From positions 434,001-498,000 of the forward strand of contig BLSF01000014.1 of NCBI GenBank assembly GCA_012862575.1: a stretch of DNA of 64,000 nucleotides, written 5' to 3'. Of this stretch, positions 7,691 to 63,400 are shown one piece after another (within the stretch, counting starts at the first letter, position 1; the number at the start of each line of letters is the position of its first letter). The notes beneath the pieces were generated by a model, which worked only from the letters and a program-made list of their open reading frames with translations, was not told the origin of the DNA and ran no database searches. The stretch comes from Parietichytrium sp. I65-24A. Lineage: Eukaryota; Sar; Bigyra; Thraustochytrida; Thraustochytriidae. A program made the translations under genes and the position numbers.

Positions 7691-8182
7691 GATCATCTGC
7701 GCTCGAGTCTCGTCCAAGAAGCAGACCCCCGATCTTGACCGACAATGCGAGGACCTCTAACAAGCGTTCCCGGGATATCGACTCATCAGAGACGTCGAGA
7801 ACTTCAGACGCAAGGGGCTTTCAACCCTTTTGGACGCAGTTNACTTTCAACCCTTTTGGACATCGTTCTCAAACGACGTGTCCAAGTGGTTGCCGTCATG
7901 CAGAGAGATAGACTTGCGAGAATTGGGTTTCAACTGTTTGAACGAATCTTTGAGGAGTTCGGGACCAGGATCGTGGTTTACGAGGGGTGTCAAACTGAGC
8001 AGGGAGAGAGTCAATGCGCAAATGGCGACCAAGACCTTGCCGAAGATCTTATCGCAGTCACCACGCTCTTTGTGGCAAGTCATAATGGACGTCGAGCAGC
8101 GCAAAAAAGAAGAAGAAGAGAGGAGAGAGAAAGGAGAGCAAATGGAACGGAAGAGACGCAAAAAGTCCAACGACAAAAGTGA
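7683..8182 (+). pseudogene. tnpA: IS607-type serine resolvase (tnpA), broken
   Basis: This is the catalytic domain of an IS607-family serine recombinase. The reading starts RRERIICARVSSKKQ, with the nucleophilic Ser in ARVSS. It continues with DLDRQCEDL, then an in-frame TAA at 7758-7760, then FPGYRLI and NFRRKGL. The second half has RDRLARIGF, the arm motif of these enzymes, followed by EDLIAV and ASHNGRR, the usual C-terminal pattern. No N-terminal MerR-like HTH is recognisable upstream. The frame also breaks at the N at 7842, where a 26-bp duplication looks like an assembly artefact; removing it restores one frame. The TAA remains, so the transposase is probably dead. Its 3' end overlaps the Fanzor start by about 98 bp, as tnpA and tnpB often overlap in IS607 elements. 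Confidence 0.75.
7818..7861. other. Assembly join with 26-bp duplication around an N
   Basis: The 18-bp segment at 7818-7835 is repeated exactly at 7844-7861, with the ambiguous base at 7842 between the copies. Collapsing the repeat (26 bp) puts the upstream and downstream parts of the resolvase in one frame and gives the expected family sequence NFRRKGLSTLLDIVL. This supports a failed contig overlap rather than a biological duplication. Confidence 0.75.
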
Positions 8183-9536
8183 TGATGATGTTGTTGACGA
8201 AAAAGAAGAAGGAGAAGAAGACGACACGACGCCAGTGGACGACGACGCAATCCAGCCCCCGAAGGAATGTACAAGAAAAGTACGAGTCTTTCCGGACGAG
8301 CAGCTTCGTCGAACGATTGATTCGTGGCTTCACAATTGCCGTTTTGTTTACAGCAAATTGGTGGAAAAATACCCAGATGTCAAGCAATCCGTGACCATTT
8401 CTACATTGCGCGACTATGTTGTCAACACTCTCCGCGTCAAGTACCCTTTTATCGAAGAAGTGCCCAAAGATCTACTCGACAATACAGTTGTACGTTCTTT
8501 CGTCAAAGCGCGGAAGGCCGAGAAAGCCAAACGAAAACGCAATCAAGCCAAGCGTGCGCGTTTCAAGTTCAAAACGAGGAAAGACAAACAACAGTCGTTT
8601 TCACTTCGGTCGAGAGATTGGGTTCGAAAGAGTGGTTGTTTTGCGCCCTTTCGTCACATTGCCCCAGCCATCAACGAAGTAATTCCTCAAAACGTACAAC
8701 ATGAAGTGAAAGTAATCCGAACGCGTCTCGGCGAATACTACATGTGCTTTACGGGGACCATTGAACGCGGTGCGTGGGATCGAAAAGTGTGTGGGAAAAT
8801 GAACGCTGAGAAGGGTGAGGTTCGATTGCGCGATATTCAAGCGCCAAGAGAATCTCTCCATTTGGTTATCTCCCTTGATCCTGGTGTACGCACAATGATG
8901 ACTGGCTACTCAGTCGATGAAGGAATGTGCGTCGAGTTTGGCAAGAACGATTATTCTCGCATCTTTCGACTTTGTAAACACATGGACAAGCTCCAAAGTT
9001 CGATTCAACAGCTCAAAAACAAGAACAAGGTTGACAAAGAGGCCGGTGTCAAAATGCGCAAGAGGCGACGCATTTCACGTCGCATCAAGAGTCGAACGAC
9101 TGCTTTCTATCGCGCCATTCGTAGAATTCGCAACCTCATCGACGAGTTTCACAAGAAAGTGGCGTGCGCGTTGTGCAATACTTACAGGGTCATACTGATT
9201 CCCAATTTCCAAACGTCCCAGATGGTCGAGGATAAATTGCGACGCAAAATTGGGTCCAAAACGGCTCGCATGATGATGTGCAATTGGGCCCATTATCGTT
9301 TCCGTCAACGACTCATTTCGCGTGCAAATCTGAACGACTGGACGAATGTCATTGTTTGCGACGAGGTGTATACCTCAAAAACTTGCGGAATGTGTAGCGC
9401 CATCGACCATCATCTCGAAGGGTCTGAAACGTTCGATTGCAAAAAATGCGACAATGTCAGTGGTCGTGACGCAAACGGAGCCAGGAATATTCTTTTGAGA
9501 TATCTCACATTGACTAGAGAATTTCTCGATGTTTGA
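8085..9536 (+). CDS. Fanzor (eukaryotic TnpB-like RNA-guided nuclease)
   Basis: A 483-residue protein of the TnpB/Fanzor superfamily. Fanzors are RNA-guided DNA endonucleases carried by eukaryotic mobile elements. After a very charged Glu/Lys/Asp N-terminus come basic helices and a split RuvC domain. RuvC-I is LVISLDPGVR. The position of the usual RuvC-II Glu reads VILIPNF, with Pro in place of Glu, while a Glu occurs further on in VIVCDEVYTSKTC; this relocated Glu is a described feature of Fanzors. A zinc-binding pattern follows (CGMC...CKKC), then RuvC-III GRDANGARNI. All three acidic residues are therefore present. I chose the ATG at 8085 because the frame upstream is occupied by the resolvase and crosses the assembly join; starts between about 8022 and 8160 are also possible. 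The resolvase partner makes it a Fanzor2/IS607-like element. The ORF has no stop although its partner is decayed. Confidence 0.88.
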   Translation: MDVEQRKKEEEERREKGEQMERKRRKKSNDKSDDDVVDEKEEGEEDDTTPVDDDAIQPPKECTRKVRVFPDEQLRRTIDSWLHNCRFVYSKLVEKYPDVKQSVTISTLRDYVVNTLRVKYPFIEEVPKDLLDNTVVRSFVKARKAEKAKRKRNQAKRARFKFKTRKDKQQSFSLRSRDWVRKSGCFAPFRHIAPAINEVIPQNVQHEVKVIRTRLGEYYMCFTGTIERGAWDRKVCGKMNAEKGEVRLRDIQAPRESLHLVISLDPGVRTMMTGYSVDEGMCVEFGKNDYSRIFRLCKHMDKLQSSIQQLKNKNKVDKEAGVKMRKRRRISRRIKSRTTAFYRAIRRIRNLIDEFHKKVACALCNTYRVILIPNFQTSQMVEDKLRRKIGSKTARMMMCNWAHYRFRQRLISRANLNDWTNVIVCDEVYTSKTCGMCSAIDHHLEGSETFDCKKCDNVSGRDANGARNILLRYLTLTREFLDV

Positions 9537-28293: not shown

Positions 28294-28377
28294 TCGAGTA
28301 ATCGTTTAAACGTTCTCCAAACTCTACTTATTGTCTTGCCTTGAACTGTATCCCAACCAAGTGGTCTGTCCAAAGAT

Positions 28378-28459
28378 CGCGGGAGACCCGGGTTCAATTC
28401 CCGGTCGTGGAATAGCTTCTAATCCGCGATAGTATAGTGGTAAGTATCCCCGCCTGTCA
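28378..28459 (+). tRNA. Permuted tRNA-Asp(GTC), copy 1
   Basis: The 3' half of tRNA-Asp (28378-28412, from position 38 through the T arm to the acceptor end GTCGTGGA plus A) comes first. A 10-bp spacer (28413-28422) follows, then the 5' half (28423-28459), starting TCCGCGA and ending at A37 after anticodon GTC. The acceptor arms TCCGCGA/TCGTGGA and anticodon arms CCCGC/GCGGG pair. A box TAGTATAGTGG and B box GGTTCAATTCC match consensus but in reversed order. No 5' half lies upstream. Sequence outside the unit is complementary (GTCC before it, GGAC after it), as needed for a bulge-helix-bulge splice. A T7 run follows within 20 bp. Confidence 0.85.
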
Positions 28460-28757
28460 AGGACTCACTCGGTTAATCTTTTTTTCACTAGTGATTTTTG
28501 TTAGTGCTGCACTTGTCACATTGTGGATCTCGTTGCTCAAGTTGAAAAACTCTACTCATTGAATTTTTATCTACGAGCTCTGTCACAGGTGGCGCAGCCA
28601 ACATGTGAAAGACGTGCTCCAGGTCAGGTGCAGGTGCATGGTCATTCTAATTTTTTCATGAACGGAACCAGAACAGAATTTTTTTGGAATTCGAAATTAC
28701 GAAAAGCAGTATGTTTGCTGAGAGAGATTCGGAAGTAACCAACTGGTAGCACAGCTT
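28460..28757. other. Spacer between permuted tRNA copies 1 and 2
   Basis: About 298 bp with no gene recognised. If the array were read as intron-containing tRNAs this would be the intron, but it contains T-runs that would stop Pol III. Confidence 0.6.
28479..28485 (+). terminator. Pol III T-run after permuted tRNA copy 1
   Basis: Seven consecutive T residues 20 bp after the 5' half, the position and form of an RNA polymerase III terminator. Confidence 0.65.
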
Positions 28758-28839
28758 CGCGGGAGACCCGGGTTCAATTCCCGGTCGTGGAATAGTTTCT
28801 AATCCGCGATAGTATAGTGGTAAGTATCCCCGCCTGTCA
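28758..28839 (+). tRNA. Permuted tRNA-Asp(GTC), copy 2
   Basis: Same architecture as copy 1: 3' half 28758-28792, spacer 28793-28802 (one base different from copy 1), 5' half 28803-28839. Both tRNA halves are identical to the other copies. The outer flanks pair very well: upstream AACTGGTAGC with downstream GTTGCCAGTT (10 bp, two G-T wobbles). Next to it upstream ACAG can pair with CTGT of the anticodon loop (4 bp). That leaves a 3-nt bulge CA|A at the 5' splice site, close to a canonical bulge-helix-bulge; the other bulge would be 4 nt. Confidence 0.87.
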
Positions 28840-28852
28840 AGTTGCCAGTTTC

Positions 28853-28869
28853 TTTTTTCCTTTTTTTTT
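28853..28869 (+). terminator. Pol III T-run after permuted tRNA copy 2
   Basis: T6, CC, then T9 beginning 14 bp after the 5' half; a strong Pol III terminator. Confidence 0.7.
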
Positions 28870-28974
28870 GGCTTAGTCAACACTACTGCTATTCTACTCC
28901 TACTGCGGATGTAGTAAGTGGAGTAGATGAAACTTGCGTTTTGAGATGTTTTCAACACTAAATTACTAAAAGGG

Positions 28975-28982
28975 TATATAAA
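28975..28982 (+). promoter_or_regulatory. TATA-like box upstream of tRNA copy 3
   Basis: TATATAAA about 44 bp before the unit. No equally good match precedes copies 1 and 2, so its role is uncertain. Confidence 0.3.
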
Positions 28983-29025
28983 TGCTTGCTCACTCAAACT
29001 GCCAACCAAGTAGCTAGCACAGCAA

Positions 29026-29107
29026 CGCGGGAGACCCGGGTTCAATTCCCGGTCGTGGAATAGTTTCTAATCCGCGATAGTATAGTGGTAAGTATCCCCG
29101 CCTGTCA
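29026..29107 (+). tRNA. Permuted tRNA-Asp(GTC), copy 3
   Basis: 3' half 29026-29060, spacer 29061-29070, 5' half 29071-29107. The flanks differ from those of copies 1 and 2 yet pair again: upstream GCTAG with downstream CTAGC, and further out CCAA with TTGG. Upstream ACAG can again pair with anticodon-loop CTGT. No 3' half follows downstream, so this copy cannot be the start of an ordinary intron-containing gene. A T14 run begins 13 bp after the unit. Confidence 0.87.
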
Positions 29108-29119
29108 AACTAGCATTGG

Positions 29120-29133
29120 TTTTTTTTTTTTTT
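29120..29133 (+). terminator. Pol III T-run after permuted tRNA copy 3
   Basis: Fourteen consecutive T residues 13 bp after the 5' half. Confidence 0.7.
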
Positions 29134-56480: not shown

Positions 56481-58200
56481 GGATGATGGACTGTGCGCTC
56501 AGCTTTCTCAACTCAGTCAGAATTCAGTTGAAACGAGTGATGGTCGTTCCTCTCCTTCTTCCACTCTGCATTGCACACATCCCAACAGCAGCAGCGATTC
56601 CGTCAATCATAAGTGTTCGTTCGATTCTCGACCTAGTCGAATGCAAAACTCTTACTGCAGCGGCAATGGTGTCAGCTTTGGCTACCTAACAGACTTTTGA
56701 TTGATTTTGACTGTAAAAGAATTATGCTTTCCGAGGGGGGGTGATCCCACACGCACAACCATGCAATCAGCACATCCCAGCACATCCCAGCTCATCCCAA
56801 CAAGACCAAGACAGGAAAAGACAGGACAAGACATTTCCGTACCGGTACTGGTACTGGCATCCCAGTCCAAAACGTCGGGTGTCGCAGGAGCCCCGGACGC
56901 TTTATCGGCATTCACAGGATTCACAGTCAGAACTGTCTCTTGATTGATCGATTGACTGATTGGTCAGATTGATCTGTCAAAAGAACCAGTGCGTGCCTTT
57001 TCAAGTTGTGACATCCTTCCTTCATGTCTGTCAAGACTCCTGACTTGCTCGCTCGTCCGTCTTACTTAGGCCGAGGCAAGTCTGATAAACTACATAAACC
57101 AAGTCTTATGTATTACTAACGCAAGGGGTTAGTGCGAGCACGTGCACGTTTTCTCTCGTTCCACGCATGTTCCACACTTAGCATTATTCTACTCTCGTAT
57201 AGCGAACAGAGAGAGCTTCCCTGTTGACCCATAGCTAGTTCTAGAGACCAACTGTCCTCCCTCCTCTGCCTCCGCACACTCAATATCAGTTCCAGCGGTA
57301 GGAGAAAATAAGCGGACGGTAGCAGTGCTAATGCCTGCCATAGCGAGGTGCCACACACTCCGCACAGTAAACTGCGGGGGCATCATCTCAGCGGACTTGC
57401 CAATTCTGCGCTCCTCCGATGGGACTTTCCCATTGAGTTGCTTATTATCAGCACGCTCCCTCCCACCCTGTAAGGATCTCCAAAACTCATCCCTACCTCC
57501 GATCTACCGTAATCCATAACCCCCTGGGGAACCTAGACGCCGCAACTCACATAAACCCATCCTACCAGCCGGATAGGACCTCCTAGACTCTGGCAGGTGG
57601 GCATGGTGTAGTGCCATCTACCGTTCCGCTAGCCATGCCGAGGGACTACGTATCTCTTTATATCGAGGCGCTAAGAACGCCGACAAAAAAAGGAAAAAGC
57701 GAAAAAAGCGAGAGAAAAAGGCGCAGTAAATCGCGGAGAAAAGCGAGGGAAAAAAGGTGTCCTCGCGTACACCCCGAGGTACTCGAAAGGCGGCGAAGCA
57801 GAGCGGGCAGCGCGGAGCAGCAGCCTCGACTAGGAGACCACGAGCGCGGCGCTCCCACCGCGACGGCTAGCAACCAAGAACCCGGGCAGAACCTGCCGGT
57901 TCTCCTCTCTCTCACTCCAAACCCCAACAGCCCAACAGCCCAACAGCCCAACAACCTGGAGAGTCTGGACAGTCTGGACAGTCTGGACAGTCTGGAGACT
58001 GAGCGCGTTTGAGTGTCTGAGTGGCTGAGAGGGAAGAGTGTAATTGCCTTGGCGAGCAAAGTAGGCAGAGAAGTGTATCACGAACGAGGAGAGTGGAGAG
58101 TGGAAAGTGGAGAAAAATCAATAGTGTGAGATTGAGCGGGACAAGAAATTCTTGTCGGGGAACGGAAAGAAGGAACAGAGGGTTTGCAGAGGGCGGCAGC
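56481..58200. other. Divergent intergenic region
   Basis: No gene recognised. Contains CCCAACAG repeats (57923-57955) and AGTCTGGAC repeats (57962-57996). The Lys/Arg-rich open frame at 57635-58012 ends before the SAM-repeat gene and lacks family features. Confidence 0.5.
57962..57996. repeat. AGTCTGGAC nonamer repeat
   Basis: Four copies of a 9-bp unit in the probable promoter or 5' UTR of the SAM-repeat gene. Confidence 0.88.
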
Positions 58201-61200
58201 ATGCGCGCGGCTAGCAGGAGCTCGAGCAGAGCGCGGCGCAATGGAGTGGAAAAGTCGTCGCGAAGCCAGAGCCGCGCGAGGTCAGAGTCGAAGCACTCGA
58301 GGGACATTCAGAGAATGATCAAGGAATTGGACGTGCGCACTGGCGTGCTGGACGATGTGATGGACTCGAGGGAGTACAAGCGCGCGAAATTCAATTTCAG
58401 GAAGCGGATGGACGATCTTCTGTTTGTGTCAGAGCTGGGGTCGTCCGAGGACGAGTCGTCTGCTTCTGAAGACGGAATGGTGTTTGAGGCACCAGCGCCC
58501 GCGCCAGCTCCTGCGGTGGCGGTGGCCAAAGCGGCGCCGATTACGAGAAAGGTGGAGTGGGAGGGCATCAAAGCTGTGCTCCGAAAAAACGGGTTCAAAG
58601 CATTTGTTCCGTTGTTCGAAGCGAATAACTGCACAACGCTGGAGGACGCACAGGCTCTGAAACATGAGGATCTCAAGCAGTGGGGAATCGAGATCTTCAA
58701 GGACAGGGCAGCCATCATTCATTGTTTTCTCAATTACGTGAGCGCCAGTGATGCATCTTCCGCCCCGGAAGATGATGGACTGGCGCAGTCCGCCTCGGAC
58801 AACTCCCTGCTAGAGTCCGAGCATTCCGAGGCGGAGGCTGTCGATCTTGATCCAGGGCACAGCGCAGAGGAATACCTCTCTGACTCGTCTGCTGAAGGTC
58901 TCAACCCAGTGCAGCAAATTCTGGAGTCCATCGGTTATGGCAGGTTTTGCCCCCTCTTCGAAAATTACACCATTCATCGCGCCAAGAATCTTGATCATCA
59001 AACTCTACGAGAGAAGGGCATCGTAGTTGCTTCGCAACGAGAGAAAATTCTGGAGGCGTTCGAAGCAGCCGCACTGCGTGAAGCCAAGCGCCGAGTGCTG
59101 AAAGACCCGGTAGTTGTTGTGCGAAGCCGATCGTTAGACCGCTCAACCGCTGCTCATACACCTTCACGGAAGCAGTCCCTGGAACGAGTCATTTCTTCCC
59201 GCATAGCTCGGGGCGAGTCAGTTGCGAGATCCGTCAGGAGCGCTTCGATTCAGGCTCGAGCGAGAGGCAAATCTTTGGAGCGGGCGCGAGGTGTGTCCGT
59301 GGCTCCGATCTCGAAAGCGAGAGGAAAGTCCGTCGTAGCAGAGCGTAAGCGGGCAAGCTCCCTCACAAAGCATTCCGAGAGAAAGCGCTCGGTATCCAAG
59401 GCGCGTCACAAGAAGTTGGATCCAGACTTTGAGGCTCTTCTAAACAGCGTGGGGCTATTGCAGTACAAACAGTACTTTGTTCTTGACGGTAAGATCTCTC
59501 TGGACGATGTTAAAGACATGACCATGCCTGAGCTACAGAAAATTGGCATCACCACCTATGCCCACCGCAGGCTGCTTCTAGACCGGGTGAAGGAGTTTAC
59601 AAAGGAAGCGGCAGAGGAGAGCTCCGAGGACGAAGCTGGTGGTAAATCTGGGGCCTCTGTCAGCAGTTCTGACCTGGAAATGGAGTTGGAGTTGAGCAAA
59701 GTATTGGACGATTTGGCCATGGAAAAGTACAAGGAAAGCCTCTGCCGTGCCGGATATAGAGCGATCCGTGATTTTGAAGGTGTTACTCATCGCAACCTGA
59801 AGGACGGGGGTGTCAAGCACGTTGCTCATGCGGACATTATTATTTCCAAGATGAAGGAGCTCAACAACGAGGGTGTTTCCGCTAAAATCGCTGAGGAGCT
59901 GGAGAAGAGGCTCAAATTGGACCGGAAGAAGGGTGCTGACTCGTCGTCGTCGTCGTCGTCGTCCTCTTCGGACAGCTCCGACTCGGATTCTTCATCAGAC
60001 GACTCCTCTACGTCTGGAGATGGCACGGAAAAAGAGTCAGAGAAGAAGGAGAAGCCATCGGATGAGGAGAAGGAGATTAAGAAAGTTCTCAAGAAAAACG
60101 GGCTTGCGAATTACTGGAACGAGTTAAAAACTCAGGAGCTCATTTCGTTTGAAAAGCTGAAAAAGGTGTCACACGAGGATCTCCGCAAGGCCGGTATCCT
60201 GTTGTTTTCCAAGCGCAAGCTCATCATCGACACGTTTAAAGCCTATTCCCCAAAGAGTGTAACCGTCAAGGCTGGCAAGAGCGACTCATCTAAGAAGAAG
60301 AAGGCGTCGGAGAAGAAAGGCAAAAAGGCAAGTGAGGAAGCCTCCAAGAAGAAATCCAAGAAGAAGAAAGCCGAGGAGACCGCTGAGTCCTCGTCATCGT
60401 CGTCATCGTCGAGTTCATCAGACTCTGATACTTCGTCTTCTTCCGCTGCTTCTTCCAAGAAAAAGACTACGAAGGCCGATAGCAAAAAGGGCAAGTCAAA
60501 GAAAGAGTCATCTGATTCTTCTAGTAGCTCGTCCGACTCCTCTTCTGAGAGTGACGCGAAAAAGAAGAAGGCTGGCGAGAAGTCCAAGTCGAAGAAAAAG
60601 GACAGCAGTAGCAGTAGTAGCTCGGACAGCTCCAGTAGCAGCAGCAGCGACGGTGGCGGTGGGAATGTTGTCAAGGAGGTTCTTAAAGGCATAAAGATGG
60701 AGTCCCACTACGATTCGATGAAAAAGGCCGGGCTAGACTCTCTAAAGAAATGTCAAACGGTCAGTCATAGTCTTCTTCGCGGCGCGGGTGTCTCTTTATT
60801 TTCAGAGCGTGATAAAATTATTCAGGCTTTCAAGGACTACGACCCCAAGAAGAGTAAGAAAGGTGGCAAAGATGCGAAGGAAAAGAAAGAAAAGGGCGAA
60901 AAGAAGAAGAAGAAAGAAGAGAGCAGCAGCAGCAGCAGCAGCAGCAGCGAGAGCAGCAGCAGTGGTAAGGGCGGTGGCGAAAGTGAGGAAGATGCTTTGA
61001 AGAAGATATTCAAGGAGCTCAATCTCAGCGATAATTTAAAGGCCGCACTGAAAGCAGGATTCACCATGGAATGCGGCAAAAAAGGTTCTCATATCGAGTT
61101 GAAGAATGCGGGAATCATCATGACCCAGCGCTTCGATATTCTAAAGGCGTGTAAAGCATGGGAGCCTGGCAGCGGCGGCAAGAAGGACTCGAAGGAGAAG

Positions 61201-63400
61201 AAGAAGAAAAAGAGCGCAAGTTCCTCTTCAGAATCTTCCTCTTCCTCTTCGGACGCGAAAAGCAAGAAGAAGCGGAGCTCCAGCAAGTCGAGCAGAAAGT
61301 CTTCATCGTCGAGCAGTAGTAGCGCAAGTGGTGGAGGGAATGACGAGAAGGACATCAAGAAGGCCATGAAGGAGGCTGGTCTGGAAGATCAGGCTAAAAC
61401 GATCATCAAGACGTTCAAGACTTTGAAGAGATGCAAGGAGCTCTCACATTCGGACCTGAGAAACGCGGGGATCAGCCTTTTCTCCCAGCGCGATAAAATC
61501 ATCAATGCTTTCCGGGATTTTAAGCCCAGCAAGTCTAGTAGTAAAAAGAGCCGCAGTCGAAGCCGCAGTCGTAGTCGTAGTGCAAGCCGGAAGCGCAAAG
61601 GGTCTTCATCTTCTTCCTCGTCATCGGGAGGAGGTTCTGACGACGAGGCAGAGATCAAGAAGGTCCTCAAAGAAGCAGGTCAAGAGACGCATGCCAAAGC
61701 GATCATCAAAGGGTTTCCAACAATTGAAAAGTGCAAAGCTCTTACCCATTCGGATCTTCGCGGGGTCGGAGTTTCTCTGTTTGGCCAACGAGACAAAATC
61801 ATCACTGCGTTCAAGGAATACACCCCCAAGAAAGGGAAGCGAAAGAGTAAATCTCGGAGTCGGAGCAGAAGCAGGAGCAAGAGTAAAAGCAGGAGTAGGA
61901 GCCGAAAGGGGTCTTCATCAAGCTCTGGTAGTGGCTCAGGAAGTGACGACGAGTCCGAAATCAAAGCTGTGCTAAAAGGCGTTGAGATGGACAAGTACAC
62001 GAAAGATATTATCAAAAGGTTTCCGACAATCAAGGAGTGCCAGAGTCTCATGCACGCAGATCTCAGGNACAAGTCCAAATCCAAGTCAAAAAGCAGGAGC
62101 CGGAGTAGGAGTAGGAGCCGAAAGGGCTCTTCTTCGTCTTCAAGCTCTGGCTCTGGCAGCGACGACGAGGCGGAGATTAAGAGCGTTCTGAAAAGCGTCG
62201 TATATGAACCAGCACGCGAAGGATATTGTGAAGAAGTTTCCGACAATCAAGGAGTGCCAGAGTCTCACGCACTCAGATCTCAGGGGCTTGGGGGTGTCTC
62301 TATTTGGGCAGCGCGACAAGATCATCACTGCATTCAAGGAATACAAACCGAAGAAGAAAGGCAAGAGCAAGTCTCGAAGCAGAAGCAGGAGCAGGAGCAG
62401 GAGTCGAAGCCGTAAAGGGTCGTCCTCGTCAGGAAGTGGAAGCGATGACGAGGCCGAAATCAAAAAGGTGCTGAAGGGAGTAGATATGGAAAAGTTTGCC
62501 AGAGAAATTACGAAGAAATTTCCAACAATAGACGAGTGCAGAGGTCTCACACACAGTGACCTGCGCACCCTTGGAATCAATCTTTTTGGCCAGAGGGATA
62601 AGATCATCAATGCATTTAAAGAGTACAAGCCTAAGAAGAGCAAGTCAAAGAGCAGAAGTAGGAGTAGGAGCAGGAGTAGGAGCCGAAAGGGCTCGTCCAG
62701 CTCCTCAAGCAGCTCTTCCGGAGACGAAGAAGAAATCAGAAAAGTGCTCAAGTCAATTCGCTTGCCCGAGCATGCCAGAGCTGTGCTGAAGGCTGCGCCC
62801 ACGATCAAAGAGTGTAAAACGCTGTCTTCGGCGAATCTGCGAGAAGCCGGAGTGACGAATTACTCTGATCGCGCCAAGATTATGGATGCCTTCAAGGAAT
62901 ATAAGCCGAGAAGAAAAAGCCGCAGTCGAAGCAGAGGTTCGTCTTCGTCCATGTCCGACTCTGAGATAATTCTAGAGATTCTGGGTACTGTCCATCAAAA
63001 GCAGCTCTATAGAGCCTTGGCAAAAGCAGGATTTGATACCGTTGCTAAGTGCAAACGGCTTACGCAAGCAAATTTGAGGGAAATGGGCATTACTACGTAT
63101 CAAGATAGGGACAAAGTCTTGAGAGCGTTCAGAGACTATTCTTCGGGCGATTCTTCCGATTCATATGCTGTCTCGAAGAGCAGGTCAAACTCGAGGTCCT
63201 TTAAGCGTTTCATGGTCGGGGATTACGTGTATCATGTGGAAGCCCCTTCTAAAATCGGAGTCATCGACAGCGCTTCGCGAGGCCAATATAACGTCAAGTT
63301 TGGCAGGAAGGTATGGGGGCCGTATGATGCCTCTATGCTGAACTACTCTCCTCGTCCCCCGAAGAAGAAAGGCTGGCTGAGTCGTTTAATGTCAGTTTAA
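58201..63400 (+). CDS. Giant SAM-like-repeat protein with Ser/Lys and RS-rich linkers
   Basis: A protein of more than 1,700 residues with about 14 copies of a roughly 60-residue helical unit, for example EIKKVLKEAGQ...FPTIEKCKALTHSDLRGVGVSLFGQRDKIITAF. The pattern (short helix, central LTHSDLRxxGI, terminal QRxKII..FKxY) is that of SAM domains. Early copies (from about 58552) are divergent; copies 9-12 are nearly identical. Linkers change along the protein from acidic/Ser runs to Lys/Ser blocks and finally (SR)n RS-domains. After the last unit comes GDYVYHVEAPSKIGVIDS...YNVKFG, a small SH3/Tudor-like beta segment. I chose the first ATG (58201). Two defects: an N at 62068 deletes the end of unit 10, and an extra T at about 62198 shifts the frame. 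Both are probably assembly or base-calling errors in near-identical repeats. SAM repeats can polymerise and RS tracts go to nuclear speckles, so a nuclear scaffold is inferred. Confidence 0.8.
62060..62204. other. Assembly gap (N) and 1-bp frameshift in SAM-repeat gene
   Basis: At 62068 the unit stops after HADLR and the sequence jumps, over one N, into the RS linker, so roughly 30 residues or whole units are missing. At about 62198 removing one T (GTCGTATATG to GTCGATATG) restores the frame and gives the expected KSVDMNQHAKDIV. Confidence 0.75.

Follow-up and report, generated by a model that had tools for sequence, protein, structure and literature searches.

The window analysed here, a 64,000-nucleotide stretch of contig C14, carries on its plus strand three circularly permuted tRNA-Asp(GUC) units (28378-28459, 28758-28839 and 29026-29107), in which the 3' half of the tRNA stands in front of the 5' half. 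A preliminary description of this DNA had reported three tandem permuted units with their halves 10 bp apart, and both inspection of the sequence and BLAST bore this out, with a 10-nucleotide (nt) linker following A73 in each of the three. Judging from the letters, it is highly probable that these units belong to a nine-copy family of working type II (37/38) permuted tRNA-Asp(GUC) genes, which is also the only nuclear source of tRNA-Asp that we found.

Nine permuted units among conventional tRNA genes

Each window unit consists of tRNA-Asp positions 38-72 (34 nt), A73, the linker (TAGCTTCTAA or TAGTTTCTAA) and positions 1-37 (37 nt; Table 1). Joining of the halves yields a normal cloverleaf with the acceptor stem TCCGCGA/TCGTGGA, the anticodon stem CCCGC/GCGGG, the loop CTGTCAC and the T arm CCGGG/TTCAATT/CCCGG; U8, G18G19, U33, T54T55C56 and the paired arms can all be read from the sequence. 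The type II order, that is 3' half, short linker and 5' half, was found in 9 of 9 units. Because two exact halves (34 and 37 nt) recur nine times, chance can be dismissed as their origin. The coding letters are identical in all three window units and in all nine units genome-wide, and leaders and trailers differ, matching the identical tRNA parts and different flanks noted earlier for the window. With A73 counted in, the linkers measure 11 nt in eight units and 12 nt in one (10-11 nt after A73). The discriminator base 73, directly after TCGTGGA, is A in all nine; eukaryotic tRNA-Asp usually carries G73, an AspRS identity element.

The assembly comprises 42,540,916 bases in 172 contigs and has gaps and N stretches; the genome searches scored just their best candidates, and their counts are lower bounds. 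The triplet of one isoacceptor seen in the window is real but not the full set: five further units lie on the minus strand of C16 (223375-224558) and a solitary one on C5 (691266-691348). A BLAST search of the genome with the 71-nt joined tRNA returned 18 matches, split evenly between 5' and 3' halves (nine each) and arranged in permuted pairs throughout. Six of the 5'-half matches cover positions 1-37 at 100% and three extend to position 40 or 41 at 98%; all nine 3'-half matches cover 37/38-71 at 100%. Only 3'-then-5' pairs were found, consistent with the earlier remark that the window triplet has no orphan 5' half in front of it and no orphan 3' half behind it. The same search gave no contiguous tRNA-Asp copy, though its expected score would lie well above that of a half. 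For the contiguous anticodon arm CCCGCCTGTCACGCGGG, 73 places in the genome matched with at most three mismatches (110 for the reversed control), none of them with zero or one mismatch, and ARAGORN reported no tRNA at four of the five two-mismatch loci. The search for a normal tRNA-Asp(GTC) gene, which had been proposed as a check, thus found no nuclear one, and the nine-copy family seems to be the sole nuclear source of tRNA-Asp found in the assembly. A separate, conventional tRNA-Asp is encoded on C141, the mitochondrial contig. Asp codons make up 328 of the 6,281 codons in six open reading frames (ORFs) of the window.

Standard tRNA detection was silent on the family. ARAGORN came up empty both for the window and for the loci of the six units outside it, and it also overlooks intron-bearing genes of this genome that Rfam detects; the Rfam tRNA model, run on the six loci outside the window only, gave no match there at its gathering score. 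By these tools the genome would therefore seem to lack a nuclear tRNA-Asp, and the same blind spot may conceal permuted tRNA genes in other protists. In the green alga Auxenochlorella, permuted genes were likewise absent from a first tRNAscan-SE set and later found as reversed halves (PMC12633428). The permuted tRNA-Asp pattern was not found in viral_contigs or genome_contigs, which carries little weight as neither is a eukaryote collection.

The tRNA genes of this genome are not permuted as a rule. We found conventional nuclear genes for 17 amino acids (Asn, Ala, Glu, Gln, Thr, Arg, Gly, Val, Ile, Cys, Trp, Phe, Pro, Ser, Tyr, Lys and Met; the Lys, Met and one Val anticodon were assigned by our own reading), often in clusters of a single isoacceptor. 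Genes for Lys, Met, one Val set and Tyr (loci L041, L038-L040, L042 and L043) contain an insertion at about 37/38 that we read as an intron, folding into a hairpin in Lys and Val. The splicing machinery here therefore probably handles 37/38 introns. Among the Lys copies, the intron sequences differ from one another. One mitochondrial-looking tRNA-Ala(TGC), at C67:101706-101777 (L019), lies on a 220-kb contig and may represent organelle DNA inserted into the nuclear genome.

For Leu, His and initiator Met we encountered neither form, in weak searches. Seven plant tRNA queries recovered Phe and Pro alone, overlooking the Lys, Tyr and Ser genes that turned up later; their silence on initiator Met and His is therefore uninformative. 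A D-arm pattern, the sole search for Leu, occurred at 31 places and, except for nine exact matches, was no commoner than its reversed control (35 places); another D-arm pattern occurred at 88 places (54 in the control); 20 stretches were inspected from both lists and the Pro and Phe matches. We also built a structural model (R1) from 11 conventional tRNAs of the genome, Asp excluded, which were cut at 37/38 and permuted in silico. R1 detected 9/9 permuted units with 43.5-49.3 bits. Outside Asp it gave 12 matches of at least 43 bits, all on adjacent conventional tandem genes (45.7-74.2 bits); since tandem conventional genes are scored as well, R1 supports the fold and not the order.

Table 1. 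Features of the three permuted tRNA-Asp(GUC) units in the window
Feature	Coordinates	Strand	Basis or remark
Unit 1, leader element CAACCAAGTGGT, presumed RNA polymerase III start-site element	28354-28365	+	12/12 letters of the consensus; like the element upstream of many conventional tRNA genes
Unit 1, remaining leader, predicted to pair with trailer and anticodon loop	28366-28377	+	Duplex of 30-nt leader and own trailer -15.0 kcal/mol; constrained fold
Unit 1, tRNA-Asp 3' half (38-73)	28378-28412	+	Sequence
Unit 1, linker, 10 nt	28413-28422	+	No T-run of 4 or more
Unit 1, tRNA-Asp(GUC) 5' half (1-37)	28423-28459	+	Sequence
Unit 1, trailer, complementary to own leader; terminator-like T7 run at 28479-28485	28460-28485	+	
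Unit 2, leader element TAACCAACTGGT	28736-28747	+	10/12 letters of the consensus
Unit 2, tRNA-Asp 3' half (38-73)	28758-28792	+	
Unit 2, linker, 10 nt	28793-28802	+	
Unit 2, tRNA-Asp 5' half (1-37)	28803-28839	+	
Unit 2, trailer, T6 run at 28853-28858	28840-28858	+	-14.7 kcal/mol with own leader
Unit 3, leader element CAACCAAGTAGC	29003-29014	+	10/12 letters of the consensus
Unit 3, tRNA-Asp 3' half (38-73)	29026-29060	+	
Unit 3, linker, 10 nt	29061-29070	+	
Unit 3, tRNA-Asp 5' half (1-37)	29071-29107	+	
Unit 3, trailer, T14 run at 29120-29133	29108-29133	+	-9.7 kcal/mol with own leader

Pairing and signals in the flanks

Were leader and trailer the two sides of an opened intron, a leader would be expected to pair with the trailer of the same unit. 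For 30-nt leaders and trailers truncated ahead of the T-run, the mean duplex energy was -13.5 kcal/mol for own pairs versus -7.7 kcal/mol for the 72 mismatched pairs, and the true assignment of leaders to trailers was the best among all 9! = 362,880, as it was again when the test was repeated with 24-nt leaders. An alternative run with 24-nt trailers that included the T-run gave -16.2 versus -8.8, and one of 200,000 sampled permutations attained the true sum. When each trailer was shuffled 1000 times, 8 of 9 units reached values of 0.031 or less. Cloverleaf-constrained folds contained 11-21 leader-trailer or leader-anticodon pairs in 9/9 precursors, and the first trailer base, following A37, is A in all nine. 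Leader-trailer pairing would close the 37/38 junction in the manner of a tRNA intron. Relaxed hBH junctions at 37/38 are described for green algae and a nucleomorph in a 2014 review (PMC3978253).

Upstream of the 3' half, all units share an element near CAACCAAGTGGT that starts 22-31 nt before it. At 8 or more of 12 letters it was present in 9/9 permuted units versus 8.7% of random 45-mers from the window, and at 9 or more in 8/9 versus 1.2%, with a consensus picked after the sequences had been seen and a background that includes the window's three units. For comparison we used 48 conventional genes (49, less one that was mitochondrial-like). The permuted units were enriched for the element (9/9 versus 25/48 at 8 or more letters, Fisher p 0.008; 8/9 versus just 21/48 at 9 or more, Fisher p 0.025), in an exploratory comparison, the consensus having been chosen with both sets in view. 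Where conventional genes carried the element at 9 or more letters, it lay 14-31 nt before the tRNA.

A near-palindromic element like CAACCAAGTGG(TT) was also seen upstream of conventional tRNA genes in L011-L033 and, by eye, in L041-L044 and L051. It is possibly an RNA polymerase III (Pol III) start-site or factor-binding element, and its place before conventional genes marks it as a general tRNA leader element. We had considered the leader motif AAGTGGT as a surrogate A box restoring the A-before-B order and rejected it, because conventional genes with the A box in place carry a similar CAACCAAGTGG. For TFIIIC, PF04182 gave one match below the cut-off (19.6 versus 22 bits, E 0.036), in a search that was also positive in 8 of 14 prokaryote controls.

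Downstream, a T-run of at least 5 begins 11-21 nt past the 5' half in 9/9 units (versus 3.2% of random 26-mers), and no linker contains a T-run of 4 or more. From the upstream element and the T-run, the predicted transcript comprises leader, 3' half, linker, 5' half and trailer.

Proposed maturation and alternative explanations

Transcription, circle formation, ligation and charging of these units would likely follow the known circular-RNA pathway. Pol III would start at the upstream element, read leader, 3' half, linker, 5' half and trailer, and stop at the T-run. The transcript would then fold as a cloverleaf whose anticodon arm is lengthened by leader-trailer pairing, so that the junction mimics a 37/38 tRNA intron. 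The tRNA-splicing endonuclease would cut off leader and trailer, a ligase would join position 37 to 38 to give an RNA circle, RNase P and tRNase Z would excise the 10-11-nt linker, and CCA would be added to the opened tRNA-Asp.

The splicing endonuclease catalytic domain (PF01974) was found at two loci, on C90 (Sen2-like) and C11 (Sen34-like). The best solved relatives of the C90 domain are archaeal-type EndA chains, followed by Sen2, and that of the C11 domain is Sen34. At both loci, the rest of the domain seems to lie in neighbouring frames behind likely GT-AG introns.

Several points weigh against working permuted genes. No tRNA ligase was identified: RtcB (PF01139) was not found in the genome and Trl1 was not searched for, so that a Trl1-type ligase is our guess from the missing RtcB. 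The leader-trailer pairing is clear for the set, not in every unit. In the run with 24-nt trailers that retained the T-run, six of the nine leaders have their own trailer as the best partner, two as the second and one as the third; the unit L005:726 was equalled by 12.6% of its shuffled trailers, and two more units are weak (2.5% and 3.1%). The junction folds are variable and relaxed, and a strict bulge-helix-bulge (BHB) is not present in all units. To these points we add the retrospective choice of the leader consensus and the presence of the element, at 9 or more letters, before only 21 of 48 conventional genes. Furthermore, the assembly is gapped and our tRNA search of it scored the best 63 of 1347 candidates; a diverged conventional tRNA-Asp may exist.

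The same gaps in 172 contigs and the same limited scoring favour the idea that the units are dead rearranged copies and that a conventional tRNA-Asp is missing or masked in the assembly. We consider this improbable: pseudogenes would be expected to decay, whereas the coding parts are letter-perfect in 9/9 units; leader-trailer complementarity (as a set), the leader element and the T-run are present; and the joined-tRNA and anticodon-arm searches gave no conventional copy. More improbable still are ordinary intron-containing genes, in which splicing across an intron of about 100-325 nt would link a 5' half with the following unit's 3' half. The halves do alternate in the arrays, and the spacers could be such introns (298 and 186 nt in the window; 101, 231, 116 and 325 nt on C16). 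However, the solitary C5 unit cannot work in this way, every array would leave its first 3' half and last 5' half unused, and a T-run follows each 5' half. The solitary unit and the array ends therefore exclude introns running between units, as the preliminary description had argued for the window. Pairing points in the same direction: the trailer pairs with the next unit's leader at a mean of -8.7 kcal/mol (six pairs), near the mismatched mean and weaker than with its own leader in 6/6, once by 0.2 kcal/mol, which counts against introns between units.

A third reading, that the halves are separate transcripts joined in trans, recalls the archaeal split tRNA-Asp (PMC3218864), which shares with our units the isoacceptor, the break at the canonical intron position and the adjacency of the halves. 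There, two separate transcripts are joined in trans, and here one transcript is expected; with merely 10-11 nt between the halves and no T-run of 4 or more in any of the nine linkers, separate transcripts are unlikely, and we give this reading almost no credence. The units are genuine permuted genes and very probably functional.

Known permuted tRNA genes, origin and host

By the features testable here, the units classify as a type II permuted tRNA gene family. The 2014 review (PMC3978253) lists 34 permuted tRNA genes, from six unicellular algal species (a nucleomorph in one case) and an archaeon, and is consistent with the host lineages named in the preliminary description (Cyanidioschyzon, some prasinophytes and a nucleomorph). 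Auxenochlorella joined these hosts after the review. In its Table 1, the Asp isoacceptor is absent, at most two genes of one anticodon occur per genome, compared to nine here, and the hosts are algae, a nucleomorph and an archaeon, unlike the probable heterotrophic thraustochytrid here. In Cyanidioschyzon merolae, 6 of 43 tRNA genes are of type II; they cover five isoacceptors, none of them Asp, with at most two copies each, whereas here one isoacceptor has nine copies. The signal in C. merolae is TATA-like, while the units here share the leader element CAACCAAGTGGT, and C. merolae is an alga, which the host here probably is not.

The permuted genes of prasinophytes (Ostreococcus, Micromonas) and of the Bigelowiella nucleomorph resemble ours in that they are type II (all but one there), do not encode CCA and have relaxed hBH junctions (PMC3978253). 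They comprise Ser, Leu, Cys, Arg, Asn and initiator Met and no Asp (PMC3978253), and their hosts are photosynthetic lineages or the relict nucleus of one. In the archaeon Thermofilum pendens the 3' half also precedes the 5' half, but the junction is at 59/60, CCA is encoded and the linker has 1 or 7 bp (PMC3978253). Within the open-licence PMC literature we found no report of permuted tRNA in thraustochytrids or of circularly permuted tRNA in stramenopiles. What is new here relative to known permuted genes would be the host, the copy number and the role as only nuclear Asp source found; the kind itself was already known.

A proposed model derives permuted genes from tandem duplication of an intron-bearing tRNA and subsequent loss of the outer halves. 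It fits here because leader and trailer act as arms of a lost intron and tandem intron-bearing genes of a single isoacceptor exist in this genome; an intermediate stage for tRNA-Asp was not found in it. With some reserve, we favour the view that all cytosolic tRNA-Asp of a non-photosynthetic stramenopile comes from circular RNA intermediates, as an innovation outside the algae that arose from an intron-bearing tRNA-Asp. The permutation would have been copied to nine genes in three places and have wholly replaced the conventional gene, tolerated as the upstream start element used by tRNA genes here would ignore the A-before-B box order. If true, the trait can arise beyond algal lineages and extend to the whole supply of an essential isoacceptor. 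With nine naturally varying leaders and trailers around an invariant tRNA, the family would offer ready data on the junction requirements of the splicing endonuclease.

The mitochondrial contig bears on the identity of the host. C141 (L007-L010; 39,303 bp, 32% G+C) has 21 of 21 tRNAs on one strand, with tRNA-Leu caa and tag only, and ORFs that we read by eye as cob, cox1, rpl2 and tatC. In its minus-strand ORFs of at least 120 amino acids, TTA occurs 5 times and TTG 399 times; four of the five TTA codons lie among the final 11 codons of their ORF, two of these four in a duplicated ORF, and the fifth is ORF-internal. The Schizochytrium mitogenome has TTA among its stops, tatC, 21 tRNAs on one strand and 33.9% G+C (PMC7799850). 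We take the avoidance of TTA, together with Leu caa and tag, as a sign of the Thraustochytrium mitochondrial code, which argues for a labyrinthulomycete affinity; the host is probably a thraustochytrid and a heterotroph. The LABY-A site of the 18S ribosomal RNA (rRNA) gene is outside the stretches read, which cover an 18S 3' fragment only. This fragment forms the end of C16 (L035 1-1670), by eye behind a retroelement polymerase/RNase H-like frame, an arrangement that is a candidate for an insertion into ribosomal DNA or a misassembly.

Elsewhere in the window, an ORF at 7830-9536 (plus strand) has a Cas12f1-like TNB domain (PF07282, E 1.2e-11) and PHROG transposase matches; by these matches it is assigned to a TnpB/Fanzor-like element. 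Its translation contains an X near the start. At 58021-63400 (plus strand), very long ORFs show, by eye, repeated modules of about 60 residues between SR/serine tracts.
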